From Pseudonocardia sp. T1-2H (lineage in GTDB: Bacteria; Actinomycetota; Actinomycetes; Mycobacteriales; Pseudonocardiaceae): a DNA stretch of 64,000 bases. Made by a program: the position numbers and the translations under genes. The DNA lies in NCBI RefSeq assembly GCF_038039215.1, contig NZ_JBBPCL010000001.1:6448001-6512000 (forward strand), in the 5' to 3' direction. Each line of letters opens with the position of its first letter. Within the stretch, counting starts at the first letter, position 1. The notes under the pieces were generated by a model, which was not told the origin of the DNA, ran no database searches, and was given only the letters and a program-made list of their open reading frames with translations. This document shows, in pieces, positions 31,548 through 62,687 of this stretch.

Positions 31548-31578
31548 CGCTAGTCGGCATCACCCGCAGGGGGCGAGG
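31548..31578 (-). promoter_or_regulatory. Dyad site TCGCCC-N5-GGGTGA upstream of SHOCT copy A
   Basis: On the minus strand the dyad is followed by TGCCGACTAGCG. The corresponding site of the SHOCT paralogue (45418-45448) matches it in 27 of 31 bases. Confidence 0.6.
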
Positions 31579-32383
31579 TAGGGCGGTCGTCCCTGGCCGA
31601 CGAGGACCACTGGGGTGCCATCAGTCCTCGGGCTCCCCGCGTCGGGGCCGGGAAGCCGATCGCGTCCGCCGCATCACCACCGCCGGCGCCGCCCGGCACG
31701 CGCACCGATTCGGCTGACGCTCCTCGCGCGACGGTCGCGACCGCTACCCGCAGGTCACCCGCCTGGCCAGGCCGGAGGTGATCCGGCTACGTCCCCGCGC
31801 CCTCGCCCCACAACACAGACCGCCGCGGCGCTGTCCCCGGGTGATGCGCCCGCACGACAGCCAAGCCGTTGAGGACGTGATCGAGGTCGCCGTCCTGGTC
31901 CGGATCGACTTCGCCTCCGCGCTGGTCGCGCGAGTGGAACTCGCCGGGCCCGACGCGTGGTGCTGCACCGCCATCCGGCTCGGACAGAACCACATGCATC
32001 GAAGCAGCAGCTCGGCGCTTCGACGCACGCTCGCCGGTCTACCTCTGGACGAACAGGGCTCCGCACCCGATGGACGAGCCGCGTCGTGCGGATCGACGAG
32101 GACGAGCTTCCGACTCGCCAGCTGGATGACGGACAAGCTCAAGGCCTCTCGGGTCGAGCACCCGCAGCCGCGAACCGTCGAAGCAGCCATCGTCTGAGAG
32201 CTACATTCGCCGCTCAACGTCAACGGAGCTGGCTCGGGCAGTTGGTGGCGACGGCCCTGAGGTCGGTCGCATTCTTGCCCACAATCGAGTATTTCTCCGA
32301 CTGTGGTCACCTTTTGCAGGTGGTGACGACCCGCACGGTGCACCGGTACGGTCAACAGCCGGCACATCCACGTCTGATACATC
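31579..32383. other. Gap of about 800 bases without a supported gene
   Basis: Both strands carry open frames (for example on the + strand at 31778-32197) but none has a family I recognise, and starts lack ribosome-binding sites. The stretch around 32205-32330 is richer in A+T than its surroundings. Probably decayed sequence upstream of the GH63-like fragment. Confidence 0.4.
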
Positions 32384-32554
32384 GTTGACGGCGTGCGGGC
32401 GGGGATCGACTATGAACCCGCCGAATCGACCACTGCGATGTTCGGTGGCAACTCGAACTGGCGCGGCCCGCTGTGGTTCCCACTGAACTACATGGTGATC
32501 AGCGCGCTGGAGCGCTACGACCGCTTCTTCGGCGACGACCACACGGAGGAGTAG
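32384..32554 (+). pseudogene. GH63/MGH1-like glycosidase, C-terminal fragment
   Basis: The frame IDYEPAESTTAMFGGNSN followed by WRGPLWFPLNYMVISALERY is the conserved end region of GH63-like glycosidases. Only about 56 codons remain, followed by a stop; the catalytic part is missing. Confidence 0.6.
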
Positions 32555-32648
32555 CTGCTGTTCTCCGACGGCCTGGCCGTGATGCCGCTGGTGATCGTCG
32601 CCGTCGTGGTCGCGCAGGTCGTGGCTGCCCGGCTGGCGCCGCCGCCGG

Positions 32649-32668
32649 TCATCCCCGCGGGGTGATGC
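32649..32668 (+). promoter_or_regulatory. Dyad site TCATCC-N5-GGGTGA
   Basis: It lies 85 bases before the small gene at 32753 and its coupled DUF3040 gene. The right half continues as GGGTGATGCC, as at several other sites. Confidence 0.55.
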
Positions 32669-32752
32669 CTTTCCGGCACCGGTGCTGCGACGCTCGCCGG
32701 AAAGACCTCCCGGGTGGTGGGCAGCGGATCAGGCGATGCGAGGAGATGTGGG

Positions 32753-32851
32753 ATGAGCGACCTCTCCCTGGCCGGGCGCGCGCGGGCAACGTGGTCGCAG
32801 GCCGCGGCCCGGCGCGACGCCGGGTGCGCCGGGAGACTGGGTGCGCCGTGA
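32753..32851 (+). CDS. Small hypothetical protein (32 aa), coupled to the DUF3040 gene
   Basis: A short frame starting MSDLSLAGRARATW and ending in a TGA that overlaps the GTG of the next gene. GAGGAG is placed 7 bases before the ATG. It could be a leader peptide or a small protein; no family is recognised. Confidence 0.45.
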   Translation: MSDLSLAGRARATWSQAAARRDAGCAGRLGAP

Positions 32852-33162
32852 GGGACGACAGGTTGCCCGCACCGGAGCCCGCGCCGATGAGCCGGCGGGA
32901 GCGGCGCACCCTGCGCGCGATCGAGGTGGCCCTGACCGACGACGATCCCGATCTCGCCCTGCTGCTGCGCGCCGACCGCGGGTCCGGCCGCCGGGAGCAG
33001 TGGACGCGGATCGCCCGGAGGACGGTGGGCCTCGCGGTGGTCCTGTTCGTGGCCGGGCTGATCCTGGCCGTCCCCGTGCTGATGGCGGTCGGTGCGATGA
33101 TCCTGCTGGTCCTACCGCCGCTGGCCTGGGTGGTCGCGCACTTCCAGCCGCCGCCCGGGTGA
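32848..33162 (+). CDS. DUF3040 membrane protein
   Basis: A protein of 104 residues. The start region MSRRERRTLRAIEVALTDDD is the DUF3040 signature, followed by two membrane segments (VGLAVVLFVAGLILAVPVLM and GAMILLVLPPLAWVVAHF). The GTG at 32848 overlaps the previous stop; an ATG at 32887 would give the shorter, family-typical start. Function unknown. Confidence 0.75.
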   Translation: MRDDRLPAPEPAPMSRRERRTLRAIEVALTDDDPDLALLLRADRGSGRREQWTRIARRTVGLAVVLFVAGLILAVPVLMAVGAMILLVLPPLAWVVAHFQPPPG

Positions 33163-33167
33163 GCCCG

Positions 33168-33189
33168 TTCGCCCGTCGCGGGTGAGGCC
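33168..33189 (+). promoter_or_regulatory. Dyad site TCGCCC-N5-GGGTGA
   Basis: TCGCCC and GGGTGA are separated by five bases, just after the DUF3040 stop. The sequence that follows holds only a gene remnant. Confidence 0.5.
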
Positions 33190-33639: not shown

Positions 33640-33661
33640 CTCGCCCGTGAGGGGTGATGTC
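33640..33661 (+). promoter_or_regulatory. Dyad site TCGCCC-N5-GGGTGA
   Basis: It lies about 170 bases upstream of DUF1269 copy A and is repeated exactly at 47278-47299. Confidence 0.55.
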
Positions 33662-33829: not shown

Positions 33830-34327
33830 ATGGGGACTTTGACGGTGTGGAAGTTCGATTCGGCGGGTGGGGCTGAGAGTGCTCTGCAGTTGTTGAAGCA
33901 GCTGCAGAAGGAGGAGTTGATCCGGATCGACGATGCGGCTTACGTTTTCTGGCCTGCGGATCGGAAGAAGCCGAAGACCCAGCAGCTTCACGATATGAGT
34001 GGTGCGGGTGCGTTGGGGGGGAGTTTCTGGGGTCTGTTGTTCGGGTTGATCTTTTTCGTGCCGTTGCTCGGGCTGGCGGTGGGGGCCGCGATGGGGGCGC
34101 TTTCCGGGTCGATGGCCGATGTGGGGATCGATGACGGGTTTATCAAGGAGGTGCGGGAGAAGGTGACGCCGGGGACGTCGGCGTTGTTTGTGATGTCGTC
34201 GAATGTGGTGCCGGACAAGGTCTTGGAGCGTTTCGGGACGACCGGGGCGTCGTTGATCTCGACGAATCTGTCGGGTGAGCAGGAGGCGAGGCTGCGTGAG
34301 GCGTTCTCCGAGGTCGAGCACGTCTGA
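33830..34327 (+). CDS. DUF1269 membrane protein, copy A
   Basis: A 165-residue protein starting MGTLTVWKFDSAGGAESALQ. A long hydrophobic Gly-zipper stretch (FWGLLFGLIFFVPLLGLAVG, GAAMGALSGSMADVGI) is in the middle and a charged C-terminus follows (VREKVTPGTSALFVMSS). DUF1269 proteins are membrane-associated and of unknown function. The ATG has GAGGAGG before it. The product is identical to that of the gene at 47433. Codons are unusual for this genome (many TTG, GTT, TTT, GGG). Confidence 0.88.
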   Translation: MGTLTVWKFDSAGGAESALQLLKQLQKEELIRIDDAAYVFWPADRKKPKTQQLHDMSGAGALGGSFWGLLFGLIFFVPLLGLAVGAAMGALSGSMADVGIDDGFIKEVREKVTPGTSALFVMSSNVVPDKVLERFGTTGASLISTNLSGEQEARLREAFSEVEHV

Positions 34328-34367: not shown

Positions 34368-34418
34368 TTCACCGGGCGCCGGGTGATCAGGGCGCCTTCA
34401 CCCGGCGCGGGGGATGCC
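34368..34418 (+). promoter_or_regulatory. Two dyad sites upstream of the Nudix gene
   Basis: TCACCG-N6-GGGTGA (from 34369) has one base more in the spacer. TCACCC-N5-GGGGGA (from 34398) continues as TGCC. The second lies 65 bases before the Nudix ATG. Confidence 0.5.
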
Positions 34419-34482: not shown

Positions 34483-35007
34483 ATGAGCGGGATCGAGGTC
34501 GGGAGCCATCACGGGCATCTCGTGCTGCACACGGTTCGCCAGGTGCACTTCCACGACGCCGCGGCCCCGGCCGCCACGATGGTCACTCCGTCGGTGTTCG
34601 TCGCCGCGCGGGACGAGCAGGGCGCGCTGCTGCTGGTCCGCCGCTGCGACAGCGGGACGTGGGAGCTCCCCGGTGGCCGGGTCGACGTCGGCGAGAGCGC
34701 GTGCGACGCCGGTGTCCGCGAGACCGCCGAGGAGGCGGGCGTGCAGGTGCACATCACCGGACTCGTGGGCCTGTTCACCGACCCCGGGCACGTCGTGGTG
34801 GCACCGGGGGGCGGCGCGACGAGACAACAGTTCGTGGTGTGCCTGCACGCCCGGGCGGCCGGGGGCCGGCCGTGGCCGGACGGACGGGAGACGAGTGCCG
34901 CCGCCTGGTTCGACCCGTCGGCCATCGATGCCCTGCCCATAGAGCCGGGGACGGCCCGCTGGATCCGGTACGCGCTCTCCGGCGCGTCCGAACCCCACCT
35001 GGACTAG
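34483..35007 (+). CDS. Nudix hydrolase
   Basis: A 174-residue pyrophosphohydrolase of nucleoside-diphosphate-linked compounds. The Nudix box GGRVDVGESACDAGVRETAE with EEAGV is complete, including the metal-binding glutamates. The GGAGGGGAGTGAGG tract precedes the ATG. The substrate cannot be read from sequence. A remnant of a second copy is present at 47958-48055 after the duplicated DUF1269 gene. Confidence 0.88.
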   Translation: MSGIEVGSHHGHLVLHTVRQVHFHDAAAPAATMVTPSVFVAARDEQGALLLVRRCDSGTWELPGGRVDVGESACDAGVRETAEEAGVQVHITGLVGLFTDPGHVVVAPGGGATRQQFVVCLHARAAGGRPWPDGRETSAAAWFDPSAIDALPIEPGTARWIRYALSGASEPHLD

Positions 35008-36593: not shown

Positions 36594-36902
36594 ATGTCGG
36601 CCGTCGACGATCTGACGGAGCCGCTCGAACGCGCGGGCGCGGCCGAACGCGTGGCACTCGCGTCGAAGTGGAAGGAACGCGCCGACGGCGAAGCCCTGCC
36701 GGATCCTGGCAAGGCCGGATCCGTGTCATCCCGGGCGGGTGATGCTGGTGTGTTCTGGGCCGGGCAGGCTTTTGTTCACCGGCGCTGGGTGCGTCGTCGT
36801 TGGTCGACGGGGGTTGGGGATGGACAGCCGTCGTACGGATTGGTCTTTCACAGGATCTCGATCGGGGTGTGGTGCTCGCCGGGGCTGTGTCGGTCGGGAT
36901 GA
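36594..36902 (+). CDS. Hypothetical ORF cut by a duplication boundary
   Basis: The first 43 codons (start MSAVDDLTEPLERAGAAERV) look like a real polar N-terminus with GGGAG before the ATG. From about 36722 the frame enters the duplicated block and becomes Arg/Trp-rich noise. Probably the 5' part of a gene truncated by the insertion of block 2. Confidence 0.35.
   Translation: MSAVDDLTEPLERAGAAERVALASKWKERADGEALPDPGKAGSVSSRAGDAGVFWAGQAFVHRRWVRRRWSTGVGDGQPSYGLVFHRISIGVWCSPGLCRSG
36726..36745 (+). promoter_or_regulatory. Dyad site TCATCC-N5-GGGTGA
   Basis: TCATCCCGGGCGGGTGATGC, 77 bases before the ATG-equivalent of the small membrane protein; repeated exactly at 48374-48393. Confidence 0.6.
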
Positions 36903-37111
36903 GTGGTCTTTTGGGCTTGGTCGGGTTTTCGGTGGGTAGCGCTGCTTTGGTCGGGGCGGGGTGGCGTTGGTATCGCCGGGTGGATTTGGCGCCGCGGGAG
37001 CTTGCGGGGTTGAGGTGGGAGCAGGTCGGGGCGGCTGTCGGGGCGGGTGTGGGGGCGTGGCAGCGGGCGGAGGAGAAGGGCTGTACCCCTCGGCGGGAGC
37101 GGACGCTCTGA
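36822..37111 (+). pseudogene. Small membrane protein, copy A, frameshifted
   Basis: Homologous to the intact gene at 48465. After the shared start (MDSRRTDWS) one extra base (TTTCACAGG against TTTGCAGG) shifts the frame. The remaining codons (QDLDRGVVLAGAVSVGMSGL, then WYRRVDLAPRELAGLRWEQV) are intact in the other frame. It could be expressed from a TTG at 36800. One membrane helix; function unknown. Confidence 0.6.
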
Positions 37112-37172
37112 GCGCGGGACGGGTCGTGGGGGTGGTCGGCCCCGGGGGAGGTTCCAGGGAGAGGAAGTGCTC

Positions 37173-37457
37173 ATGGTCGGGCAGGGTTCCGGTGGTACCA
37201 CCAGTGCTCCGGAGGGGCGGGGGCTGCGGCTCGGTGGTGGAGCGATCGCGGCGCTGATCGGGGTGGGGTTGCTTGTGGTGTTCATGTTTCAGAACACCGA
37301 GCGGATCACGTTGGATTTCCTGTTCTGGAGTTTCACGTGGCCGTTGTGGTTGTTCACGCTGGTGACGGCGTTGATCGGGGCGATGGTCTGGTTCGGGGTC
37401 GGTGTCGTTCGCCGTCACTGGCGCCGTACGGCGCGCCGGGCGGACCGCCGGGACTGA
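37173..37457 (+). CDS. LapA-domain (DUF1049) membrane protein, copy A
   Basis: A 94-residue protein. After a Gly/Thr-rich N-terminus come two membrane helices (GGAIAALIGVGLLVVFMFQN and WPLWLFTLVTALIGAMVWFG) with the LapA-type NTERITLDFLFWSF between them, and a basic tail. AGGGAGAGGAAG precedes the ATG. The copy at 48818 differs in only a few residues. The family is linked to lipopolysaccharide assembly in proteobacteria; its role in actinobacteria is unknown. Confidence 0.85.
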   Translation: MVGQGSGGTTSAPEGRGLRLGGGAIAALIGVGLLVVFMFQNTERITLDFLFWSFTWPLWLFTLVTALIGAMVWFGVGVVRRHWRRTARRADRRD

Positions 37458-37632
37458 CGCGGACCGGGGTCGCGTCCGCTCATTCCGTGGCGGGCGCGGC
37501 CCGGTCGCGCATGTGCCGGCGCGCCGACGTCGACGACAGGTCCGATGGTCGATCCCGACGGGTCGCCGGTCCTCATCCGAATCGGATGAACGGGACCGCG
37601 CCGTAGCCCTCGACGACCGTCGGTCGTCTCCT

Positions 37633-37655
37633 TTCACTCGCCGCGGGCGAGTCGG
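37633..37655 (+). promoter_or_regulatory. Dyad site TCACTC-N5-GGGCGA
   Basis: A weaker match, 77 bases before the amphi-Trp gene. A further conserved stretch just upstream, CATCCGAATCGGATGA (37578-37593), is repeated near 49936. Confidence 0.45.
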
Positions 37656-37731: not shown

Positions 37732-38049
37732 ATGTCGGACGTCGAGATCAAGCGAACCGAGTCACTCTCCCGCGAAGAGGCAGCGGAACGGTTGTCCGCA
37801 CTCGCCGCCGCGCTCTCCGAAGGCGGTCACGTCGAGGTCAGGCTGGGGGCCAGCACCGTGAAACTCCACGTTCCCGACCACGTGCAGTGCGAGGTCGAGG
37901 TGGAGGTCGACGGTGACGATGTCGAGCTCGAGGTGGAGCTCACCTGGTCGACCGCTCCGGTGTCGCAACCAGCCTCGGTGCCCCCACCGCAGTCCGCTCC
38001 GCGGCAGGCTGGTCGCACCCGGTCTGCAAAGCGTGACGCCGGGAACTGA
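37732..38049 (+). CDS. Amphi-Trp domain protein
   Basis: A 105-residue protein. The start IKRTESLSREEAAERLSALA and the acidic strands VEVEVDGDDVELEVELTW match the amphi-Trp domain, named for its amphipathic strands with a conserved Trp. A Pro/Ser/Gln-rich tail follows. Function unknown; frequent in stress-gene islands of actinobacteria and archaea. Confidence 0.75.
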   Translation: MSDVEIKRTESLSREEAAERLSALAAALSEGGHVEVRLGASTVKLHVPDHVQCEVEVEVDGDDVELEVELTWSTAPVSQPASVPPPQSAPRQAGRTRSAKRDAGN

Positions 38050-38079: not shown

Positions 38080-38101
38080 GTCATCCGGTGCGGGCGAGGA
38101 C
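38080..38101 (+). promoter_or_regulatory. Dyad site TCATCC-N5-GGGCGA
   Basis: 70 bases before the 66-residue gene at 38171. The paralogue at 50135 has TCATCC-N5-GGGTGA at the same distance. Confidence 0.55.
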
Positions 38102-38170: not shown

Positions 38171-38371
38171 ATGGCGCGGTACGAGGTGTGTGTGCGCGGA
38201 CGGTTGTCCGAGCGTGCGCGAGGCGCGTTCTGCTCGATGGAGGTGAAGGCGGTGCCATCGCAGACGCTCCTGTTCGGCGTGCTTCCCGCTCAATCCGACC
38301 TGCACGAGCTGCTGGCGCTGTGCAGCGACATGGGCCTGGAGGTGCTCTCCCTGCAGCGGCTACCGGGCTGA
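38171..38371 (+). CDS. Small conserved protein (66 aa), copy A
   Basis: Starts MARYEVCVRGRLSERARGAF and ends GLEVLSLQRLPG. It is 80-90% like the gene at 50135 and related to the 70-residue protein at 39353, so three paralogues occur within 12 kb. The predicted pattern is beta-alpha-beta, like small ligand-binding or regulatory domains. I do not recognise a named family. GGGAGGCGAG precedes the ATG. Confidence 0.7.
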   Translation: MARYEVCVRGRLSERARGAFCSMEVKAVPSQTLLFGVLPAQSDLHELLALCSDMGLEVLSLQRLPG

Positions 38372-38493
38372 CCGCGACGACAGGGCGGTCACCCTCTCCG
38401 GATGAGGTGACGGCGCCGGCCGCGGATGACACTGGCCGCCGCGTCGTCCCCAAGGATTCGTGAGCGGCGCTCGGAACCACGAGAGGGAGAGTC

Positions 38494-39039
38494 ATGGCCA
38501 TCGGACCCGTCCAGCTGATCGTTCTAGGATTTCCCGAGCCCGATTTCCACGGTCAGATCGCCGCGGAGCTGGAGCGCCTGCGGGAGAGTGACGCGGTCCG
38601 GGTGATCGACGCCCTCGCGGTGCACAAGACCACCGACGGCGAGGTCGAGGTGGCGCACCTGAGCAACCTGTCCGACGACGAGGCGACCGAGCTCGGCAGC
38701 GTGGTGGGGGCTCTGGTCGGGTTGGGGATCGAGGGCGAGGAAGGGCTCGAGGCGGGTGCGGAAGCCGGTGCGCGGGCCGCCGCGGACGGCATTCACGCGT
38801 TCTCCGACGAGGACGCGTGGGACGTGATCGAGGAGATCCCGGACGGATCGGCCGCGGCGCTCGTGCTGCTCGAACACCACTGGGCGGTGCCGCTCCGCGA
38901 CGCCGTCGCCGCCGCCGGCGGGTTCCGCATCGCCGACGGTTTCATCAGCCCGCTGGACCTGATCGGGATCGGCATGCTGAGCGCGGAGGAAGCGCGCGAG
39001 CTGCACGCCATGGAGACCGCCACGGTCGGCGCCGGCTGA
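38494..39039 (+). CDS. DUF6325 family protein
   Basis: A 181-residue protein starting MAIGPVQLIVLGFPEPDFHG with VIDALAVHKTTDGEVEVAHL and a Gly-rich helix (VVGALVGLGIEGEEG). The end has DGFISPLDLIGIGMLSAEEA. The family resembles DUF1269 in pattern and is of unknown function. GAGAGGGAG precedes the ATG. Fragments of further copies are found at 45.2-45.4 kb (minus strand) and 50.34 kb. Confidence 0.8.
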   Translation: MAIGPVQLIVLGFPEPDFHGQIAAELERLRESDAVRVIDALAVHKTTDGEVEVAHLSNLSDDEATELGSVVGALVGLGIEGEEGLEAGAEAGARAAADGIHAFSDEDAWDVIEEIPDGSAAALVLLEHHWAVPLRDAVAAAGGFRIADGFISPLDLIGIGMLSAEEARELHAMETATVGAG

Positions 39040-39635: not shown

Positions 39636-41009
39636 TCACCGCGCCGGCTGTCCGCCGAGGACGCGGAGCAGGGCGGTGACGGCGTCCTGGAACCCGGCGG
39701 GTGCCACAGCGGCGGGAGCGACGCCGGGCGCGTTCACCGGGGTCCGGACGCGCAGCGCGCCCGGTAGCGAGCGGAACCGCAGCGGCGGGGCCAGCTGCAG
39801 CGCCTCGCCGTCGACTCCGACGTCCACCAGCGGGTCCGCCGAGTCGACCTCGAACTCCGGGGTCGTCCACGCCCGGTAGCCGTGGAAGCGCTCGATGTGC
39901 CCGCTGGCCTCCGCGGAGAGCAGGCTCGGCATGTCCCGCGCGCGGTCCACCGTCACCGTGACGACGCCGAGGACGCCGGTGTCCATGCGCTCCCGGGTGC
40001 CGAACCCGTTGAGGCTGTCCAGACGGTAGACGCCGTTGGAGACGAGCAGGACGTCGGCGTGGCCCCCGGCTTCGCCGTCGGCACGGGTGAAGCGCAGGTC
40101 GAGGCGCTCGGCTTCCGGGCCCAGCAGCTGGGGGAGTAGCTGGGCGGCGGTCGCGAGCTTCGCGTCGCGGTACGCGTCGGACTGGACGACGGTGGCGTAC
40201 GCGCCGAGCGAGGCGTTGTTGACGAACACCCGGTCCCCGAGCAGGGCCAGGTCGATGCGGCGCTCGACCGCGCTGTCGTAGGCGTCCAGAGCGGCCGTGA
40301 CGTCGGCGCGGTCCAGCCCGAGGTCGAGGGCGAAGTGGTTGCGGGTACCGGCCGGAACGCAGACGAACGCGACGTCGTGCCGGCGGGCGATGTCCGCGAC
40401 GAGAGCCTGCGAGCCGTCGCCCCCGGCCATCCCGATCACGTCCGCGCCCTTCGCGACGGCCTGCTCGGCGAGCGCCTGCAGGTCGTCCCCGCGCCGCAGC
40501 ACCACCGGCTCCACGCCGCGTTGCCGCGCCTCCTGCTCCAGGCCGAACCGCTCGACCTTCCCGCCGCCGGACCACGGGTTCATGATCAGGACGCCCTGCC
40601 GGGCGCGCCCCACGGACCGGGCCCCGGCCGAGCCGTGCGCGAGGTCGTGGCCGATCGCCACCCGGGCCGCCGCCGTGGCCACCAGGACGAGCGCGACGAC
40701 GGCGACGATCCGCAGCATCGAGCCGGCGAACAGCAGCGCCACCGCTGTCGCCAGCGCGACGACCGCCGCCACGCTCGCGGCCAGCCGGCGGCCGCCGTGG
40801 TTCACCAACGCCGTCCACGCGGCGACCACGGTGATGACGATGAGCAGCACCACCAGGATCAGTACCAGCGGATCCCGCAGGAAGGTCGACACCGCGACCG
40901 CGGCCGCCGCCAGGAGGGTGAGCAGCGCGCCTCCGGCGGCCAGGCGTCGAGCGGTCGAGGGCGGTGGGGGCGCGAGTCCCGCGCCAGGGGACCCGTCCGG
41001 TGCGTTCAT
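39636..41009 (-). CDS. Diacylglycerol/lipid kinase-like membrane protein
   Basis: A 457-residue protein. Up to four membrane helices fill residues 20-140 (GGALLTLLAAAAVAVSTFL, LVLILVVLLIVITVVAAWTA and others). A DAGK catalytic domain follows: VLIMNPWSGGGKVERFGLEQ, the nucleotide loop VIGMAGGDGSQALV, PAGTRNHFALDLGLD, and FVNNASLGAYATVVQ. Such proteins phosphorylate diacylglycerol or similar lipids; the fused membrane part is typical of actinobacteria. The ATG at 41009 lies 65 bases after a TCACCC-N5-GGGTGA dyad on the same strand. Confidence 0.85.
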   Translation of the reverse strand: MNAPDGSPGAGLAPPPPSTARRLAAGGALLTLLAAAAVAVSTFLRDPLVLILVVLLIVITVVAAWTALVNHGGRRLAASVAAVVALATAVALLFAGSMLRIVAVVALVLVATAAARVAIGHDLAHGSAGARSVGRARQGVLIMNPWSGGGKVERFGLEQEARQRGVEPVVLRRGDDLQALAEQAVAKGADVIGMAGGDGSQALVADIARRHDVAFVCVPAGTRNHFALDLGLDRADVTAALDAYDSAVERRIDLALLGDRVFVNNASLGAYATVVQSDAYRDAKLATAAQLLPQLLGPEAERLDLRFTRADGEAGGHADVLLVSNGVYRLDSLNGFGTRERMDTGVLGVVTVTVDRARDMPSLLSAEASGHIERFHGYRAWTTPEFEVDSADPLVDVGVDGEALQLAPPLRFRSLPGALRVRTPVNAPGVAPAAVAPAGFQDAVTALLRVLGGQPAR

Positions 41010-41072: not shown

Positions 41073-41094
41073 GTCACCCCGCCCGGGTGACTCC
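41073..41094 (-). promoter_or_regulatory. Dyad site TCACCC-N5-GGGTGA upstream of the lipid kinase gene
   Basis: A perfect dyad on the minus strand (TCACCC GGGCG GGGTGA) followed by CGCC. Confidence 0.65.
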
Positions 41095-41199: not shown

Positions 41200-41463
41200 G
41201 TGAGTGACCTGTTCGCCGAGCGGCAGACCCGTCCGCTGGTCCTGGAGGCCATGCGGGCCGTCCTGTCCGACGACCACAACTACGAGCGCGGGTTCGCCGC
41301 ACTGAACGACCTCGTGGACCGCGTCGTCCGGGAGGAGGGCGCGGGCCGGCTCCGCGACTTCGCGGTGGCGCTATCGCTCGCGCTGGCCACGGCGCTCGAG
41401 CGGGTCGCCCAGGAGCAGCGACTCGCGGCGGAGGATCTCGTGGATGTGTGGTTCGCCGGATGA
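41200..41463 (+). CDS. Hypothetical protein (87 aa)
   Basis: Starts VSDLFAERQTRPLVLEAMRA with GCGAGGAGAACG before the GTG and ends VDVWFAG. Helical and soluble, with no known domain. It lies divergent to the lipid kinase gene. Confidence 0.6.
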   Translation: MSDLFAERQTRPLVLEAMRAVLSDDHNYERGFAALNDLVDRVVREEGAGRLRDFAVALSLALATALERVAQEQRLAAEDLVDVWFAG

Positions 41464-45417: not shown

Positions 45418-45448
45418 CCTCGCCTGCTACGGGTGATGCCGAGTAGCG
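45418..45448 (+). promoter_or_regulatory. Dyad site TCGCCT-N5-GGGTGA upstream of SHOCT copy B
   Basis: 79 bases before the ATG at 45527 and embedded in a 31-base stretch shared with the site of SHOCT copy A. Confidence 0.6.
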
Positions 45449-45970: not shown

Positions 45971-45973
45971 CCA

Positions 45974-48464: not shown

Positions 48465-48756
48465 GATGGACAGCCGTCGTACGGATTGGTCTTTGCAGGA
48501 TCTCGACCGGGGCGCGGTGCTCGTCGCGGGTGTGTTGGTCGGGATCGGTGGTCTTTTGGGCTTGGTCGGGGTTTCGGTGGGTAGCGCTGCTTTGGTCGGG
48601 GCGGGGCGGCGTTGGTATCGCCGGGTGGATTTGGCGCCGCGGGAGCTTGCGGGGTTGAGGTGGGAGCAGGTCAGGGCGGCTGTCGGGGCGGGTGTGGGGG
48701 TGTGGCAGCAGACGGAGGAGAAGGGCTGTACCCCTCGGCGGGAGCGGACGCTCTGA
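48465..48756 (+). CDS. Small membrane protein (about 97 aa), copy B
   Basis: Starts MDSRRTDWSLQDLDRGAVLV. One long hydrophobic stretch follows (GVLVGIGGLLGLVGVSVGSA), then WYRRVDLAPRELAGLRWEQV and a basic end. This copy is open, while the one near 36.8 kb has a frameshift. Note G/T-rich codon use. It lies 61 bases before the LapA gene and probably forms an operon with it. No named family. Confidence 0.65.
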
Positions 48757-49353: not shown

Positions 49354-49848
49354 TCAGCCCGCGTCGCGCTTCAACTCGCGGCCGTGGACCACGATCGCGT
49401 AGATCACGATGATGTCCACGGCGATGACGATGGTGGACCAGACCGGGTAGGCCGCGATGAAGATCAGGTTCAGGATCGCGCTGAGGACGGCGAGGACGAT
49501 GCCGACCACGCGGGCGGCCGTGTTGCCGGCGAGAAGGCCGAACCCGGTCGCCACGGCGAGGATGCCGAGGATGAGGTGGACCCAGCCCCAGACGTTGTAG
49601 TCCACGTGCAGGACCAGGCCGGACGAGGCGACCAGGTAGTAGCCCTTCTCGAACAGGGCGACGAGCCCCTGGATCACCTGGAACGCACCCAGCATGATCA
49701 GCATGATGCCGGCGAAGACGACCCAGCCGGTCCAGCCGGAGACGCCCGTGGCGGGGGTCGTCGCGTAGCTGGAGCTGGGGCCGGTTCGGTCGTGCGCCTG
49801 GTGGGGGAGGTGTCGGTCATCGGACTTCTCCTCGATCTGCTGAGTCAT
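49354..49848 (-). CDS. DUF7144 family membrane protein
   Basis: A 164-residue protein. The family core is WTGWVVFAGIMLIMLGAFQV, IQGLVALFEKGYYLV, NVWGWVHLILGILAVATGFG and AAYPVWSTIVIAVDIIVIYA: four membrane helices with the conserved GWVH and YPVWS motifs. Function unknown. A related gene is at 62684 and a broken one at 54609. Confidence 0.8.
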   Translation of the reverse strand: MTQQIEEKSDDRHLPHQAHDRTGPSSSYATTPATGVSGWTGWVVFAGIMLIMLGAFQVIQGLVALFEKGYYLVASSGLVLHVDYNVWGWVHLILGILAVATGFGLLAGNTAARVVGIVLAVLSAILNLIFIAAYPVWSTIVIAVDIIVIYAIVVHGRELKRDAG

Positions 49849-50043
49849 TCGGGAACCACCGGGTCTGCTGGTTCCGGATGCCTACGTCCGCCGCCGACGT
49901 CGACGGCACGCCCATCCTCGGTCCTGCCGGGCGGCCGGTCCTCATCCGAATCGGATGAACGGGACCGTCCAGGGCCGAGGAAGGTGTAACCCGGGCAGTC
50001 GAGCGGCGCGGCCGGCGCCCCGGAGGTGATCACGAGGCACTCG

Positions 50044-50065
50044 GTCATCCGGTCCGGGTGACGAC
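50044..50065 (+). promoter_or_regulatory. Dyad site TCATCC-N5-GGGTGA
   Basis: 70 bases before the 66-residue gene at 50135, the same distance as at its paralogue. Confidence 0.6.
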
Positions 50066-50134: not shown

Positions 50135-50335
50135 ATGGCGCGGTACGAGGTGTGCGTGCGTGGACAGTTGTCCGAGCGGGCGCGAGGCGCTTTCTGCTCT
50201 CTCGAGGTGCAGGCCGCGCCGCCGCAGACGCTCCTGTGCGGCGTGCTTCCCGATCATTCCGACCTGCATGAGCTGCTGATGCTGTGCAGCGACATGGGCC
50301 TGGAGGTGCTCTCCCTGCAGCGGCTGCCGGACTGA
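50135..50335 (+). CDS. Small conserved protein (66 aa), copy B
   Basis: Starts MARYEVCVRGQLSERARGAF and ends GLEVLSLQRLPD; paralogue of 38171. Directly after its stop a short piece of the DUF6325 gene (DGSAAALVLLEHQWAVP) remains, cut by the insertion element at 50397. So this is the same gene order as copy A, interrupted. Confidence 0.7.
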   Translation: MARYEVCVRGQLSERARGAFCSLEVQAAPPQTLLCGVLPDHSDLHELLMLCSDMGLEVLSLQRLPD

Positions 50336-51032: not shown

Positions 51033-51054
51033 CTCACCCCGGCGGGGTGATGCC
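51033..51054 (+). promoter_or_regulatory. Dyad site TCACCC-N5-GGGTGA
   Basis: A perfect dyad (TCACCC CGGCG GGGTGA) followed by TGCC, 114 bases before the MFS gene. Confidence 0.65.
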
Positions 51055-51167: not shown

Positions 51168-52766
51168 ATGACCGAGGCAGCGAGTTCTAGTGATGCCGAG
51201 CAGCTAAAGGGCCATCAGCGGCTGCTGGCCCTGCTGCTGGCGGCGGCGATGTTCGTGCTCGTCGTCGACACCTCGCTGATGAATGTGTCGATCTCGGCGG
51301 TGGTTCGGGATCTCGGCACGACCGTCAGCGGCGTCCAGTCGGCGATCGCGCTGGAAGCACTGGTGTCCGCCGCATTCATCCTGATCGGCGGCAAAGTCGG
51401 CGATCTCATCGGACGCAAGCGGGCCTACGTACTGGGTCTGCTGGGCTACGCCGTCGGCGCCCTGGCGATGGCGCTCGCCCAGAGCCTGACCGCGGTCATC
51501 GTCTTCTGGGCGGTGCTGGGCGGGATCGGCGCCTCTCTGCTGCTGCCGGCCATGCAGTCGCTCATTCACGGCAACTTCGAAGGAGCTGCGCAGAAACAGG
51601 TCTACGCCCTGGTCGGGGCGGCGGCAGCGATCGCTGCTGCCGTTGGACCGCTGCTCGGAGGCTTCATTACCACCTACCTGTCGTGGCGGGTCGGGTTCGT
51701 GCTCGAGGTCGTCATCATCACCGTCGTGCTGTCCGGCATCAAACTCGTCCGCGATGTGCCCTACACCGGACCGCGGACCATCGACGTCGTCGGCGCGCTG
51801 CTGTCCGTCATGGGCATGGGCGGGCTCGTGCTGGGCATCCTGGTGTGGCAGGAGGGCGGCGAATCCGTTGGCGCGCTCCTGGCCACGGGCGTGATCGCGC
51901 TGGTCGCGCTGGCGTACTGGCTGGTGCGGCGCAAGCGTGCCGGGAAGCCGACGCTGATAGACCCAGATCTGTTCAGCTCCAAGCTATTCCGGTTCGGGAT
52001 CTCTCAACAGATGCTCCAGCAGATCGCCCTGGGCGGCGCCATGATCGCGCTGCCGATCTATCTGCAGATGGTGCTGGAGTACAACGCGCTGCAGGCCGGC
52101 CTGTCCCTCGCCCCGCTCTCGCTGAGCATGTTTGCCATGGCGCTGCTCGCCGGGAAGAAAGCTGGACAGCGCCGCCCCAGCAGCATCATCCGGCTGGGAT
52201 TCGCGCTTCTCACCGTGGGCATTGCGATGCTGATCCCGATCGTGCCCCGCGCTGAGTTCGGCTGGGCCCTCATCGTCCCGTTGCTGATCGCGGGATCGGG
52301 GCTGGGCTTGTTGGTGTCTCAACTCAACAACTACACCCTGGCCCCGATCTCCGAGGAGCGGGTCAGCGAGGCTGCCGGCGTGAACTCGGCGGCCGGCTCG
52401 TTCGGGTTGTCGTTCGGGCTGGCGTTCACCGGTGCCATCATGCTGGCGACGCTCTCCTTCTCCTTCACCAAGATGGCCGAAGCCAGCACCGTGCTCCCGC
52501 CAGCGCAGCAGCAACAAGTCGCACAGGCCCTGGAGAACGACGCGGAATTGATGACCAACACTCAGCTCGAACAGCTGCTGGGCAACCAACCCCAGGAGAT
52601 TCGGGACGAGATCATCCGCATCAACACCGAGGTGCGACCCATTTCTCTTCAGGTGGCACTGCTCATTCCGATCCTCGCTGGCCTCGTCGGATTGTTCAAT
52701 TCATTCCGCATGATGCGCCTGCCCGACCCCGCACCATCCGGCTCCGAAGGGATGACCCTCGGCTGA
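51168..52766 (+). CDS. MFS transporter, DHA2 (14-helix) type
   Basis: A 532-residue exporter with about 14 membrane segments. The family motif of helix 1 (LVVDTSLMNVSISAVVRDLG), the loop GGKVGDLIGRKRAYVLGLLG (motif A) and motif C-like GPLLGGFITTYLSWR are clear. The end has a large loop (about 440-490) and a last helix. Such proteins export drugs or toxic compounds in exchange for protons; the substrate is unknown. The ATG at 51168 has a poor ribosome-binding site. Confidence 0.88.
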   Translation: MTEAASSSDAEQLKGHQRLLALLLAAAMFVLVVDTSLMNVSISAVVRDLGTTVSGVQSAIALEALVSAAFILIGGKVGDLIGRKRAYVLGLLGYAVGALAMALAQSLTAVIVFWAVLGGIGASLLLPAMQSLIHGNFEGAAQKQVYALVGAAAAIAAAVGPLLGGFITTYLSWRVGFVLEVVIITVVLSGIKLVRDVPYTGPRTIDVVGALLSVMGMGGLVLGILVWQEGGESVGALLATGVIALVALAYWLVRRKRAGKPTLIDPDLFSSKLFRFGISQQMLQQIALGGAMIALPIYLQMVLEYNALQAGLSLAPLSLSMFAMALLAGKKAGQRRPSSIIRLGFALLTVGIAMLIPIVPRAEFGWALIVPLLIAGSGLGLLVSQLNNYTLAPISEERVSEAAGVNSAAGSFGLSFGLAFTGAIMLATLSFSFTKMAEASTVLPPAQQQQVAQALENDAELMTNTQLEQLLGNQPQEIRDEIIRINTEVRPISLQVALLIPILAGLVGLFNSFRMMRLPDPAPSGSEGMTLG

Positions 52767-55814: not shown

Positions 55815-56404
55815 CGGGGATGAGGCCGGCATGGCGGCGGCGGTGAGCAGCCGGCGAAGGTGCTGCCGCGATGCCCGGGCGAACTCGCCCGGCAGCATTT
55901 GGGCTAGTACCGCGTCAGGCAACCTTCGCCCTGAAGGCGGCCTCCGGGACACGGGGCGGGATGCGGCGGAGGCTGGGGCTCACGCGCCAGCGATGAGTGC
56001 GGCGAGAGCACCGATGACGTTGCAGGGGCCGCGTTCACCCCACGGGGGTGATGCCACCTCGCGCGTGCTGCCGTGGGGTTGACCCCGGACGACGCGGCGG
56101 CGTGCTCGCAGCAGCCAGGGACGCGATGGCCAGGGGGCTGACCCCAGCGGGTTCTGCAGCAGCCGGGTCACCTGCAACGTGCCCATGGCCAGTAGCTCCT
56201 CGTGGGCTCGCTCGCGGAACGATCAGCCCACTGTCCACCGCGCGCCGACGAGATCGGTCTCCACCTGCGCTGGATGATGGCGGGGTAGGGCCGGCGGGGC
56301 CCGGCCTTCTGACTCGCCCTTGTCGGGTGACGCGCCGGCCGCTCCACCGTGGTTCGTTGGCCACCTCGTGTCAGGGGTCGTTTCGCCAGGAGGGCGTGGT
56401 AACG
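55815..56404. other. Gap before the glutamine amidotransferase gene, with one dyad site
   Basis: No gene can be supported in these 590 bases. TCACCC-N5-GGGTGA lies at 56035-56051, about 350 bases before the next gene; the intervening sequence may hold a lost small gene or a long leader. Confidence 0.45.
56034..56055 (+). promoter_or_regulatory. Dyad site TCACCC-N5-GGGTGA
   Basis: A perfect dyad TCACCC CACGG GGGTGA followed by TGCC. Farther from the next start codon than the other sites. Confidence 0.6.
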
Positions 56405-57259
56405 ATGTGCAGGTGGATGGCCTACTCGGGCGACCCGGTCCTCGCCGACGACCTGCTGCTCCGGCCGAAGCACTCGATCATCGACCAGAGTCTGCACGCC
56501 GACCTCGGCGCAGGGATCACCACGAACGGTGACGGCTTCGGCATCGGCTGGTACGACGACGTCGACGGCGACGGCAAACGCGGCGCGCCAGCGGTGTTCA
56601 AGAGCACCCATCCGGCCTGGAACGACGAGAACTTGCGCGAGGTCGCCACCCGGATCCGCACGCCCCTGCTGTTCGCACACGTCCGCGCCTCGAGCGGAAC
56701 CCCGGTGCAGCGCAGCAACTGCCACCCGTTCCGGTACGGGAACTGGTTGTGGATGCACAACGGATCGCTCGCCGGGTTCCCGGAGGTCAGGCACGACCTG
56801 CTGATGGCGGTGGACCCGTCGCTGTATCCGAAGCTCGTGGGAACCACCGACACCGAGACCCTGTTCTTCCTGGCGCTCACCTTCGGCCTGACCGACGACC
56901 CGCCCGCCGCGGTCGCCCGCGCGGTCGGCCTCGTCGAGAACGTCGGCCGGCGCCACGGGGTCGAGTACCCGGTCCACATGACCGTGGCGACGACCGACGG
57001 CGAGACGACCTGGATCTTCCGCTACTCCAGCGAGAAGGCCACCAGCTCGCTCTTCTACTCGAACCGGGTCTCCCAGCTGCGCGATCTGTACCCGGAGATG
57101 GACGTCTTCGACCGCCTGAGTGCCGACGCCCGCTTCATCGTCTCGGAGCCACTGCGCGACCTCCCCGGTGCGTGGACCGAGGTCCCGGAGGGTTCGTGGG
57201 CGTTCGTCCGGGGGAGCGAGCACGACATCCAGCAGTTCCAGCCGACGGTGCCCGCGTGA
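56405..57259 (+). CDS. Class II glutamine amidotransferase
   Basis: A 284-residue Ntn-type enzyme. Translation must begin at 56405 so that Cys2 (MCRWMAYSGDP) becomes the N-terminal nucleophile after removal of Met. Other motifs are NGDGFGIGWYDD, LLFAHVRASSGTPVQRSNCH and WLWMHNGSLAGF, as in YafJ/GAT-II proteins. It releases ammonia from glutamine; the acceptor is unknown because no synthetase domain is attached. AGGAGGG is placed rather far upstream. Confidence 0.88.
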   Translation: MCRWMAYSGDPVLADDLLLRPKHSIIDQSLHADLGAGITTNGDGFGIGWYDDVDGDGKRGAPAVFKSTHPAWNDENLREVATRIRTPLLFAHVRASSGTPVQRSNCHPFRYGNWLWMHNGSLAGFPEVRHDLLMAVDPSLYPKLVGTTDTETLFFLALTFGLTDDPPAAVARAVGLVENVGRRHGVEYPVHMTVATTDGETTWIFRYSSEKATSSLFYSNRVSQLRDLYPEMDVFDRLSADARFIVSEPLRDLPGAWTEVPEGSWAFVRGSEHDIQQFQPTVPA

Positions 57260-59117: not shown

Positions 59118-60047
59118 GGCGTGTCCTGTAAGGGTTCTGACCTGGTCTCGGTGATCATGTTTTGGTGGTGGGACGTGGTGAGCTGACGGAGGAGGCATGG
59201 GCCCGGATCGAGCTGCCGCCGGTCGAGAGCGGGGGTCGGCGGTGGCGAGACCGCCGTCAGGTGATCAACGCGATCCTGTGGAAGCTACGTACCGGCGCCC
59301 CGTGGCGCGCCCTGCCCGAGCGTTACGGACCCTGGAAGACCGCGCACGAACGCCTGCGGATCTGGACCGCGGACGGCACCTGGGAACGCATCCTCGACCA
59401 GGGCACCGTCAAGGACGACTCCGTCGGGAACGTGGAGTGGACTTTCAGCGTCGATTCCAGCAGCGTCCGGGCCCACCAGCACTCCGCCGGGGCCCGGAAA
59501 AAAGGGGCTGCACCACCGGGTGGATCGAAGCCCTCGCCGTCGACGGAGAAGCCCTCGGACGGTCCCGCGGGAGGCCTGACCAGCAAGATCCACCTCGCCG
59601 TCGACGGGCGCGGACTGCCGATGTCGGTGATCCTGACCCCCGGCCAGGCCGGGGACAACCCGCAACTACTCCCGCTGCTCGACCAGATCTCGGTCGGCCG
59701 TGACGGACCTGGCCGGCCCCGCAAACGCCCCGACCGGGTCCTGGCCGACAAGGCCTACTCCCACCCTCCACCCGGGTGGCGATGCGAGCACGCGGGATCG
59801 CGTTCACCAGCCCGGAGAAGAGCGACCAGATCGCGCGCCGCCAAGCGAAGGGCTCCCGCGGCGGCCGCCCACCAGCCTTCGATCCCGATCGCTACGCCAA
59901 CCGCAACGTCGTCGAACGCTGCTTCAACCGGCTCAAACAGTTCCGCGCCCTCGCCACCCGCTACGCGAAGCGGATGGCCTACTACCGATCCGAGATCATC
60001 ATCGCGACCATCGTGTTATGGCTGCGTGCCGACTTACAGGACACGCC
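59118..60047 (+). mobile_element. IS5/IS112-like insertion sequence, 930 bp
   Basis: Bounded by perfect 15-bp inverted ends GGCGTGTCCTGTAAG / CTTACAGGACACGCC and flanked on both sides by CTAG, the usual target of IS112-type elements. It contains a transposase gene with a frame break. Other, more decayed copies lie at 50397-50970 and 61273-61422. Confidence 0.88.
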
Positions 60048-60051
60048 CTAG
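59162..60051 (+). pseudogene. IS5-family transposase, frame break
   Basis: A DDE transposase: the first Asp is in FSVDSSSVRAHQH, the second in KIHLAVDGRGLPMSVILTPG and the Glu in NVVERCFNRLKQFRALATRY. The frames change near 59766 (ADKAYSHP to TRVAMRARGIAFTSPEKS); one base is missing, or a -1 shift is needed. The last codons run through the inverted end, and the stop TAG is supplied by the CTAG target outside the element. Start: TTG at 59162 or GTG at 59165/59168. Confidence 0.8.
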
Positions 60052-61219: not shown

Positions 61220-61272
61220 GCCGTCTGGGGGGAACAGACGGTCTCGTCGGCGCTGATCGGCGTGCTGATCGC

Positions 61273-61422
61273 GACCGAACCGAACGCTGCTTCAACCGGC
61301 TCAAACAGTTCCGCACCCTGGCCACCCGCTATGCGAAGCGAGCCGCCTCTACCGCGCAGAGATCATCATCGTCGCGATCGTGTTGTGGCTGCGCACCGAC
61401 TTACAGACTTACAGGACACGAC
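61273..61422 (+). mobile_element. IS5/IS112-like element, right-end remnant
   Basis: Encodes only the end of the transposase (RCFNRLKQFRTLATRYAKRA) and carries the right inverted end CTTACAGGACACGAC followed by CTAG (61423-61426). TTACAGA is duplicated just before the end. The left part is missing. Confidence 0.75.
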
Positions 61423-61968
61423 CTAGGACGGCGGGGGCGTCTCGACCGGCGGTATGCCGGTGCAGCCCATCCGGACGCTGTCGACGATGGGCTTGGCCGC
61501 CGCCTCGACCTCAGCCACGGACGCGGCGAGGGCGCCGAGCTTGGCCGACAGGCTGGCCTGGTCGCTGATCCCGGCGATCGTGCCCTGCAGCGATGCGAGG
61601 GCCTGTTCGAGCGCGGGGACCTGCGGGCCGAACTGCCCCTTGGCCGCGGTCAGCAGGGCCCGCCCGGCGTCGGCGAGATTCTGCAGGGCGGCCTTGACGC
61701 CCTCGCTACCGACCTTGGTCGCGTCAAGTTGCACGATCGCGTTGGCCGCCGTCTGGAACTGCGCCGCCGCGGCACACAGCTCGGGGGAATACGTGGACGC
61801 GGCGGGCGAGGTCGTGGCCGCCGGGGGCGGCGGCGGGGTCGAAGGCGGCGCGCTCGGCGGCGCCGAGCACCCCGCGAGGACCGCGACGCCGAGCAGGGAC
61901 GCCACGGTCGCGCGCACGGCGGCCCCGTCGATGGTCCTTCGACGGGAGCTGATGACGATGTGCACCAT
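61423..61968 (-). CDS. Putative lipoprotein
   Basis: A 181-residue secreted protein. A basic start (SSRRRTIDGAAVRATVA), a hydrophobic core and the lipobox LAGC (SLLGVAVLAGCSAPPS) give a type II signal peptide; a Pro/Ser-rich linker follows. The helical mature part (residues 65-170) contains AAQFQTAANAIVQLDATKVG. It would be anchored on the outer face of the membrane. GGAGGTG precedes the ATG. Its last codons and TAG stop coincide with the CTAG at the IS remnant, so the original C-terminus may have been longer. Confidence 0.8.
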   Translation of the reverse strand: MVHIVISSRRRTIDGAAVRATVASLLGVAVLAGCSAPPSAPPSTPPPPPAATTSPAASTYSPELCAAAAQFQTAANAIVQLDATKVGSEGVKAALQNLADAGRALLTAAKGQFGPQVPALEQALASLQGTIAGISDQASLSAKLGALAASVAEVEAAAKPIVDSVRMGCTGIPPVETPPPS

Positions 61969-62042
61969 GGACACCTCCAGAACTCGGGGCGGCGGGTCGA
62001 CCTGCCGCCGGGGGCTGATGATTCGCGATCCCGGGGGCCCCG

Positions 62043-62064
62043 GCGTCGCCCGTGCGGGGTGAAC
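62043..62064 (-). promoter_or_regulatory. Dyad site TCACCC-N5-GGGCGA upstream of the lipoprotein gene
   Basis: On the minus strand TCACCC CGCAC GGGCGA, about 75 bases before the lipoprotein ATG. Confidence 0.55.
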
Positions 62065-62225
62065 GCAGCTCACCCCACCGTCTCCTCGTCCGTGCACTCA
62101 GACGGCCCGTCCGGCCGCGAGCCGGAGCAGCGCGGGAACGGCCCGGGTGAGCCCCCGGGGTGTGCGGGCGGCGCCCGGCGCAGAGATCGAGATCCGGACA
62201 CTCAGGCTGACCCGGCAGCGAGCGG

Positions 62226-62687
62226 ATGTTCGGCCTGCTGTTCTTCGTGCCGCTGCTGGGGATGGCGGTCGGGGCGGCGATGGGCGCCCTCGCCGGCTCG
62301 ATGTCCGACGTGGGTATCGACGATCGGTTCGTCGAGGAAGTGCGCGAGAAGATCACTCCCGGCACGTCGCTGCTCTCTCTGGAGGAGATGAGGGCCGCAG
62401 CCACGGTGCCGATCAACACCGTGAAGACCTACGTGCGCTCGATCTACAACAAGCTCGGGATCAGCAGCCGGCGGACCGCCGTCCTCGCCGGCTACGAGCA
62501 CGGCCTCATTGCGACGACCCCCGCAGGGGACCGGGTACCCGGTCGCGCTGTCCGGTTGACGCCTGTCCGTCCCCGCGCCACATCGGGTCGGGGCGATCCG
62601 CAGTCATTCGTTTCGGGCGAGGCGACGACCGGCCACCCGGCCGATCCTGGCCCGGGAAGAATTACCCGACGAGGGAGCACACGATGA
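62226..62687 (+). pseudogene. Chimeric ORF: DUF1269 middle joined to a LuxR helix-turn-helix end
   Basis: The first 45 codons (MFGLLFFVPLLGMAVGAAMG, ALAGSMSDVGIDDRFVEEVR) are the membrane and following part of a DUF1269 protein. After EKITPGTS the frame turns directly into the end of a LuxR DNA-binding domain (SLEEMRAAATVPINTVKTYV, RSIYNKLGISSRRTAVLAGY, EHGL), very like the end of the regulator at 41.9-44.5 kb. The N-termini of both are missing. A fusion made by recombination between decayed copies; it is unlikely to be functional. Confidence 0.7.
62603..62625 (+). promoter_or_regulatory. Dyad site TCATTC-N5-GGGCGA
   Basis: A weaker match, about 60 bases before the DUF7144 gene at 62684. Confidence 0.4.

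Follow-up and report, generated by a model that had tools for sequence, protein, structure and literature searches.

The DNA analysed here, called the window throughout, is a stretch of 64,000 nucleotides (nt) from Pseudonocardia sp. T1-2H (contig NZ_JBBPCL010000001.1, positions 6,448,001 to 6,512,000). It carries many copies of a 17-bp dyad, TCRYCC-N5-GGGYGA, in which two inverted half-sites are held 5 nt apart, together with a frameshifted gene for a large ATP-binding regulator of the LuxR family (LAL). The exact dyad was found at 16 distinct places (26 strand matches), compared with a mean of 0.29 and a maximum of 2 in 100 shuffles of the window, and all the exact copies lie within 31.56-63.60 kb. 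A pattern scan gave zero exact copies before 31.5 kb. This is consistent with the original prediction, which had claimed from the sequence a recurrent dyad of fixed spacing and no copy in the first 28 kb. When two mismatches were allowed the count was ordinary (127 versus 105, a level reached by 6 of the 100 window shuffles).

The sites and the regulator gene

Seventeen sites had been predicted and all were found, 13 of them exact and four with one mismatch (34398, 37634, 45420 and 62604), these four also carrying the -10 signature described below. Five sites had been missed, namely the exact dyads at 38389, 56314 and 63586 and two of the form TCATCC-N5-GGATGA at 37573 and 49942. The 22 window sites comprise 16 exact, two GGATGA-type and four one-mismatch dyads. 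A further copy reported at 34.37 kb with a 6-base spacer is TCACCG-N6-GGGTGA; it has one mismatch and adjoins the site at 34398. The sites are given below with their predicted promoters and -10 elements, followed by the two parts of the LAL gene, here named LAL-A. Gene calls and start codons are predictions of our own script.

31560-31576, minus strand: exact dyad, promoter of a SHOCT-domain gene called at 31044-31484 (minus strand; SHOCT match slightly under the Pfam cut-off); -10 GACGGT starting 22 nt past the dyad
32649-32665, plus strand: exact dyad, promoter of a DUF3040 gene (start near 32887; DUF3040 match); -10 GACGCT at 23 nt
33169-33185, plus strand: exact dyad with a good -10, TAGCGT; a clear downstream gene was not found
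33641-33657, plus strand: exact dyad, promoter of a DUF1269 gene called at 33830-34327 (DUF1269 match); -10 CAGAAT
34398-34414, plus strand: one-mismatch dyad, promoter of a Nudix gene (34483-35007; NUDIX match); -10 CACCGT
36726-36742, plus strand: exact dyad, -10 CAGGCT; the first gene, at 36.7 kb and of 96 amino acids, looks frame-broken (intact counterpart behind 48374) and a LapA-domain gene (37047-37457) is next
37573-37589, minus strand: TCATCC-N5-GGATGA dyad; -10 GACCAT on the minus side faces left, with no fitting start
37634-37650, plus strand: one-mismatch dyad, promoter of an open reading frame (ORF) at 37732-38049, which we take, after its earlier label, to be an amphi-Trp gene; -10 CACGAT
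38081-38097, plus strand: exact dyad, promoter of a 66-amino-acid protein (38171-38371); -10 GAGCCT
38389-38405, plus strand: exact dyad, promoter of a DUF6325-like gene (38494-39039; match just under the cut-off); -10 GACACT
41074-41090, minus strand: exact dyad, promoter of a lipid kinase gene (39636-41009, minus strand; DAGK_cat match); -10 CACGGT on the minus side only
45420-45436, plus strand: one-mismatch dyad, promoter of a SHOCT/PLDc_N gene (45527-45970; family matches); -10 GACGGT
47279-47295, plus strand: exact dyad, promoter of a second DUF1269 gene (47433-47930; DUF1269 match); -10 CAGAAT
48374-48390, plus strand: exact dyad, promoter of a 96-amino-acid ORF (48466-48756; counterpart at L005:7432-7728); -10 CAGGGT
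49942-49958, minus strand: TCATCC-N5-GGATGA dyad, promoter of a DUF7144 gene (49354-49848, minus strand; DUF7144 match); -10 GAGGAT on the minus side
50045-50061, plus strand: exact dyad, promoter of a second 66-amino-acid protein (50135-50335); -10 GAGCCT
51034-51050, plus strand: exact dyad, promoter of a major facilitator superfamily (MFS) exporter gene (51168-52766; MFS_1 match); -10 GAGACT
56035-56051, plus strand: exact dyad without the -10 signature
56314-56330, plus strand: exact dyad without the -10 signature, 74 nt ahead of a class II glutamine amidotransferase gene (56405-57259)
62046-62062, minus strand: exact dyad, promoter of a gene at 61423-61968 (minus strand), without Pfam match and presumably a lipoprotein gene, as labelled earlier; -10 AATCAT on the minus side
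62604-62620, plus strand: one-mismatch dyad, promoter of a DUF7144 gene (62684-63109; DUF7144 match); -10 GATCCT
63586-63602, plus strand: exact dyad, promoter of a gene starting at 63707; -10 GAACAT
41878-42743, plus strand: N-terminal ATPase part of LAL-A in a first frame, from ATG 41878, with Walker A (from the translation)
42770-44515, plus strand: C-terminal part of LAL-A in a second frame, with a GerE (LuxR-type) DNA-binding domain (E 1.6e-11)

The distance from a dyad to a plausible predicted start is about 63-221 nt, mostly 63-120, a wider range than the 55-115 bases claimed earlier. No clear intact target gene lies behind the window dyads at 33169, 36726 and 37573. The flank of the 33169 dyad resembles the AI-2E transporter promoter of a dyad cluster at 2.60 Mb (L012:3838), and this site is perhaps an orphan copy of that promoter; the 37573 dyad is perhaps an orphan left by duplication. 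Three promoter copies were duplicated along with their genes (33641/47279, 36726/48374 and 38081/50045), in line with the earlier proposal that duplication carried the operator along. Paralogous SHOCT, DUF1269, 96-amino-acid and 66-amino-acid genes stand with their promoters in two blocks, at 31.0-38.4 and 45.4-50.3 kb, and promoters akin to these are also found at 1.87 and 2.60 Mb.

Promoter geometry and predicted regulon

Throughout the genome (7.0 Mb in 3 contigs) the dyad TCRYCC-N5-GGGYGA gave 44+35 strand matches against 8+9 for a reversed control, its symmetric form TCRYCC-N5-GGRYGA was found at 58 places against 11 for the reversed control, and the strict form TCAYCC-N5-GGRTGA at 32 places against 0. 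TCATCC-N5-GGATGA occurs in full at at least three places (37573, 49942 and L005:9371). Further groups of dyads lie outside the window near 0.53, 1.05, 1.87, 2.16 and 2.60 Mb. In a census of location and -10 elements covering 54 of the 58 places, 45 lay between called genes and 9 were intragenic; the dyad is not as common inside genes as between them, the comparison on which the original prediction had staked its claim.

From the distance published between an Actinoplanes motif of this type and its transcription start site (TSS; PMC7567727), a -10 hexamer is predicted about 22 nt past the dyad. A NANNNT -10-like element was found 22-23 nt past the 17-bp dyad in this genome, in relatives and in other families. 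This signature was scored as an A at offset o with a T at o+4, flanks sharing their first 40 bases being counted once; the A...T pair was chosen after inspecting the flanks of the own genome and was then applied to relatives and further families. The fuller TANNNT had proved too strict a test, the first T being rarely present at dyad sites. Among 107 half-flanks of the own genome the pair occurred 30 times at offset 23 and 9 times at offset 24 (other offsets 0-6), and in 204 half-flanks of relatives 65 and 36 times respectively (other offsets 0-9). Fifteen further stretches, two of them without a dyad, gave 34 and 27 (104 half-flanks; other offsets 0-5). Because each site has two flanks, normally one of them toward a gene, these counts mean that most sites are tagged, as we call sites with the signature.

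The element stands at the predicted distance in 39 of the 54 own-genome places, and the signature separates intergenic from intragenic dyads (37 of 45 versus 2 of 9). Of the 22 window sites only 56035 and 56314 lack it on both sides; the other 20, the four one-mismatch sites among them, have it on one side or both. Over all pooled loci, 195 of 211 tagged flanks (208 sites) have a gene start on the same strand no more than 400 nt ahead, where -10 offsets of 22-24 were allowed and one site was counted twice through the L012/L054 overlap. GGGTGA is the commoner half-site here; on the gene side, 24% of tagged sites have A in the third place. The half nearer the gene continues with K-G (GGRTGA-K-G), the G being present in 81% of 212 tagged sites. 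Given the NANNNT element 22-23 nt downstream, the dyad appears to cover the -35 region, and by the published distance its centre would fall near -43.

The tagged dyads front diverse families, as expected from the claim of one operator type ahead of many otherwise unrelated genes, and they precede homologous genes in other genera and families, so that conservation among relatives was borne out as well. Counted by genomes or named strains, the families behind tagged dyads are DUF7144 (14), the 66-amino-acid protein (13), AI-2E transporter (12), DUF6325-like (11, of which two, in G060 and G064, are short and doubtful), DUF1269 (10), lipid kinase (8) and SHOCT (7); these are single-linkage groups named from their own-genome member. 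Other tagged genes of the own genome encode BrkB/YihY, DUF308, DUF1622, a chloride-channel-like protein, the MFS exporter and a sulfatase-like protein, the last named from a neighbouring FGE-sulfatase gene and from its sequence by eye. The 66-amino-acid family (38171-38371, 50135-50335 and L012:6501-6704) has no Pfam match and is predicted to adopt a ferredoxin-like fold (predicted local distance difference test score, pLDDT, 94); a Foldseek comparison with the PDB gave no telling match (best E 0.02). The gene content suggests a stress or envelope regulon.

LAL regulators and alternative explanations

A second copy of LAL-A lies at C1:2603818-2606422 (L012:6819-9423). Just beyond it and beside the dyad cluster is LAL-B, an intact frame of 864 amino acids (C1:2607450-2610044) that is about 40% identical. 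Both LAL-A copies have APAGYGKT (Walker A) in the N-terminal frame and GerE above cut-off. AAA_22 and AAA_16 were under the Pfam cut-offs for LAL-A (E 4e-5 and 3e-4), and TPR_MalT reached 26 bits in the 2.6 Mb paralogue against a cut-off of 45 and is not listed for the window copy. The NCBIfam MalT model NF003420 is the best match of both LAL-A parts; its equivalog score of 537 bits was not reached by either part searched apart (83 for the window C part, 149 for the paralogue N part, P0003), and as these scores are far under the cut-off we call LAL-A MalT-like and not MalT. Among PDB structures the LAL profile matched E. coli MalT best (8bob, E 7e-64). In the own genome no further LAL match at E <= 1e-20 was found beyond those at these two dyad groups.

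A chain of about 850-900 amino acids is found in LAL-B and in relatives, whereas both LAL-A copies are split over two frames by an extra T (near 42743 in the window copy), where they read GAGCTTCTC and five relatives have GAGCTCTC or GAGCTGTC-like sequences. The two copies differ at 11% of sites and yet share this one-base insertion. Their differences per codon position are 0.084/0.063/0.118 in the N part, a mild third-position excess, and 0.103/0.072/0.186 in the C part, a clear one. An ATG at 42770 could serve the second part as a separate start. The frameshift may be an assembly error, or it may reflect a split gene, a programmed +1 shift or decay in which LAL-B takes over. Systematic miscalling of GAGCTC was considered as the cause of the insertion and rejected, GAGCTC occurring 171 times in 261 kb of the own genome; other errors are possible. 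Near the LAL genes we also noted a family of small proteins of about 90 amino acids (the L054:4168-4449 group, 18 copies in 10 of 41 assemblages), a window member of which, at 41200-41463 and assigned by eye, directly precedes LAL-A. The short ORF at 62226-62687 includes a fragment of LuxR type that shares 64% identity with residues 529-578 of LAL-A, perhaps a remnant of another LAL copy.

LALs and dyads occur together beyond this genome. In 62 congeneric genomes the strict dyad was found at 338 places against 10 for the control. With the own genome set aside, congeners with a LAL (n=39, E <= 1e-20) have a mean of 6.77 dyads and those without (n=22) 1.91, with a p value of 5e-8 that is inflated, like the others of this kind, by the kinship of the genomes, which was ignored; a strong LAL-A match goes with 8.2 dyads and a weak one with 4.0. 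Relaxed dyads were in no excess over the control in some congeners (G002, 14 versus 23; G024, 11 versus 21). When 394 genomes of the class were compared, ours was the richest in strict dyads, with 32 against 19 in the next. Of these genomes 32 contain a LAL at E <= 1e-60, with a mean of 8.7 dyads in the 31 besides our own. In one family (f34), 15 LAL-containing genomes have 1-19 dyads and seven LAL-less ones 0-2, two of the seven being only 75-81% complete. Of five dyad-rich genomes without a close LAL that were searched, four were fetched (G451 was left out), and the dyad regions obtained from them contain a divergent LAL in each case.

The search from the regulator side gave a similar picture. 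Seventy-nine LAL loci were listed, found regardless of dyads; 33 are actinobacterial by title, two of these being contigs of genomes already counted. Actinoplanes malT (ACSP50_3915) was not among the loci listed. Among the matches listed, strict half-sites in the 33 actinobacterial loci (655 kb) were separated by 5 nt 28 times and by all other spacers from 0 to 12 nt 4 times. In the other 46 loci (753 kb) the figures were one and seven; four of these half-site pairs had a 10-nt spacer, perhaps another spacing or chance. The loci with the spacer-5 dyad include Amycolatopsis, Prauserella, Kibdelosporangium, Rhodococcus rhodnii, Actinophytocola, Gordonia and Nitriliruptoraceae. A tagged dyad lies within 10 kb of the LAL at 14 of 17 loci with a profile score above 500 bits and at 1 of 22 below, a comparison of the 39 listed loci with a called LAL of at least 500 amino acids in which the boundary was picked after seeing the data. 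In a quick tree of 88 LALs (of 94 rows; three L074 rows, from the same contig as L055, and three short ones were left out) the dyad label changes 9 times, against 25.2 for shuffled labels. Of the 55 LALs in one group (support 84), 49 are dyad-linked; a group of 32 (support 83) contains eight such LALs, of which three adjoin a LAL of the first group and five are in loci picked for dyads. These five, and the long-branched LAL of G455, indicate that dyads also accompany LALs outside the main clade.

From these comparisons the dyad is very probably the operator of actinobacterial MalT-like LAL activators, which join a STAND-type ATPase to a LuxR-type helix-turn-helix (HTH). The candidate regulators are the two frameshifted LAL-A copies (41878-44515 in the window and the copy at 2.60 Mb) and the intact LAL-B. 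The original prediction had proposed one transcription factor without naming it; a candidate is indeed encoded inside the region, but three LAL genes, not one, are candidates. A LAL switched on by ATP and an inducer would bind TCRYCC-N5-GGRYGA, replacing the -35 contact, and would activate promoters in which the -10 mostly lacks the initial T of TANNNT. A gene duplicated together with its promoter would remain in the regulon. It is conceivable, if rather unlikely, that a group of LALs serves widely as a switch, sensing sugar or energy, of a conserved envelope and stress regulon with a fixed code (dyad, 22-23 nt, NANNNT), run here by the LAL-A copies despite their shared frameshift, either as two coupled polypeptides or by programmed +1 frameshifting.

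Several observations weigh against a LAL operator, besides the kinship of the genomes, the incomplete f34 genomes and the choice of score boundary given above. A LAL stands beside only two of the own-genome dyad groups, and the LAL-A copies carry the one-base insertion. Some LAL-containing genomes have few dyads, both among the congeners (G015, 0; G005, 1) and in the class (G339, 0; G282, 1). The LAL-less congeners still have about two strict dyads, and LAL-less G001 has 29 relaxed dyads versus 12 for the control, with four strict ones scattered. No tagged dyad was found within 10 kb of the LAL at loci L069, L076, L078, L081, L165 and L166. In the tree, the main clade linked to dyads does not include the LALs of the four dyad-rich test genomes. 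This last point, together with the lack of an adjoining LAL at most own-genome groups, makes the assignment to LALs slightly less firm, and that to another factor slightly firmer.

Such a factor, for instance a response regulator of the NarL/DosR type, would bind the dyad while LALs merely co-occur with it. GerE-type HTH domains are common to LALs and NarL-type regulators, and other regulatory genes lie near some clusters (a receiver domain at L012:1574-1897, a GAF-ANTAR protein at L005:2349-3080). However, among the 45 most widespread families in 41 assemblages, most of them chosen for their LALs, the only other DNA-binding family recognised by eye was LysR-like, in 3; genomes picked first for their dyads each contained a LAL; and the motif and its -10 distance equal those of Actinoplanes MalT in the published account (PMC7567727). 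We consider another factor improbable. A variant that does not exclude the LAL operator is that LAL-B alone reads the dyads here and both LAL-A copies are decaying. The full frame of LAL-B beside the 2.6 Mb cluster, the insertion common to both LAL-A copies and absent from five relatives, and the report that of two adjacent MalT-like genes in Actinoplanes just one had much effect (PMC7567727) are all consistent with this. The excess of third-position differences in both parts of LAL-A, as if selection had continued after duplication, and the larger number of dyads in genomes with a strong LAL-A match argue the other way, and we give this variant a little less than an even chance.

Two further explanations do without a regulator. 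The dyad could be a mobile or repetitive extragenic palindromic (REP)-like repeat, or a mere passenger of gene duplication, as the three duplicated window pairs might suggest; outside these pairs the flanks differ, homologous genes in other families carry the dyad, and the fixed distance to the -10, on which a REP-like repeat was rejected, holds across sites, so that we regard this as very improbable. A role as RNA or DNA hairpin, an attenuator or terminator, has in its favour that the CCC-N5-GGG arms are able to pair. The two arms do not covary (Fisher p 0.61 and 0.30 in 212 tagged sites), with A opposite C at one pair in 32 of the 212, and the hairpin role was rejected on this ground; moreover, as the dyad lies upstream of the -10, a hairpin would not be transcribed from that promoter. 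This is barely credible.

Actinobacteria commonly encode LALs, and sites or targets are known for few of them. Here the LAL genes, a dyad of fixed spacer and a single -10 distance make up a readable code that proposes the regulator of a hidden regulon; it gives direction and target for most sites and allows members of the regulon to be predicted in other genera. One switch would govern several families of unknown function (DUF7144, DUF6325, DUF1269 and the 66-amino-acid ferredoxin-like protein).

Other features of the window were noted in passing. A Rv1733c-family protein (46301-46792; NCBIfam NF050032, 108.5 bits) lies inside the dyad region with no dyad directly ahead. At 59782-60051 is a C-terminal piece of an IS5-family transposase (57.9 bits, under the cut-off), and 29710-30270 matches the second half only of glycoside hydrolase family 15. 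Positions 22073-26623 hold gyrB followed by a long gene, perhaps gyrA; from gyrB, the dyad region may be near the replication origin.

Comparison with known operators

The claim that the dyad matches no known site did not hold. It fits the operator published for Actinoplanes MalT, though more often with G than A in the third place of the half-site, and its GGRTGA core also fits the E. coli MalT box. In Actinoplanes sp. SE50/110, according to the relevant passages of Droste et al. (2020, PMC7567727), the MalT-like ACSP50_3915 activates a region of 51 genes, 42 of which went down on its deletion and 39 up on its overexpression. TCATCC-5nt-GGATGA was found upstream of 17 TSS, overlapping the -35, with its 3' end 34.4 +/- 1.0 nt away, and also in four related Micromonosporaceae. 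Its authors likened it to the E. coli MalT box, GGA(T/G)GA flanked by G residues. Among the titles and abstracts listed from the open-licence literature, the dyad appeared in PMC7567727 only, with no GGGTGA form and no such Pseudonocardia regulon. The Streptomyces LALs SCO0877, SCO7173 and SCO6993 belong to the same protein class as our candidates (PMC3282765, PMC9628970). The passages on them in these papers contain no dyad-like site, and a consensus for SCO6993 could not be predicted by its authors.

The dyad region and the Actinoplanes MRLGR share several features. Both systems have a dyad with a 5-nt spacer over the -35, placed here from the predicted -10, and a regulator gene (here a candidate) inside the target region, with two neighbouring MalT-like genes. 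In both, many targets are unannotated or membrane-related, gene order is reshuffled between species, and a class II glutamine amidotransferase and a dipeptidase are among the genes; the glutamine amidotransferase and M20-family genes at 56.4-58.7 kb resemble ACSP50_3919 and ACSP50_3944 by annotation only, and the two dyads of these genes have no -10 signature. The systems differ in that the GGGTGA half is commoner here and that the 37 tagged places between genes are scattered among many loci, in contrast to the single Actinoplanes region. With the MalT box of E. coli and Klebsiella, as cited in PMC7567727, our sites share the GGA(T/G)GA core flanked by G, an overlap with the -35 (predicted here) and a candidate regulator of the same build, but here the boxes form an inverted pair with a fixed 5-nt spacer. 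No maltose genes were noticed among the dyad targets searched. The type of site is known from Actinoplanes and its near kin; what this analysis adds is the G form, the dispersed regulon, its reach across many families and the frameshifted regulators.

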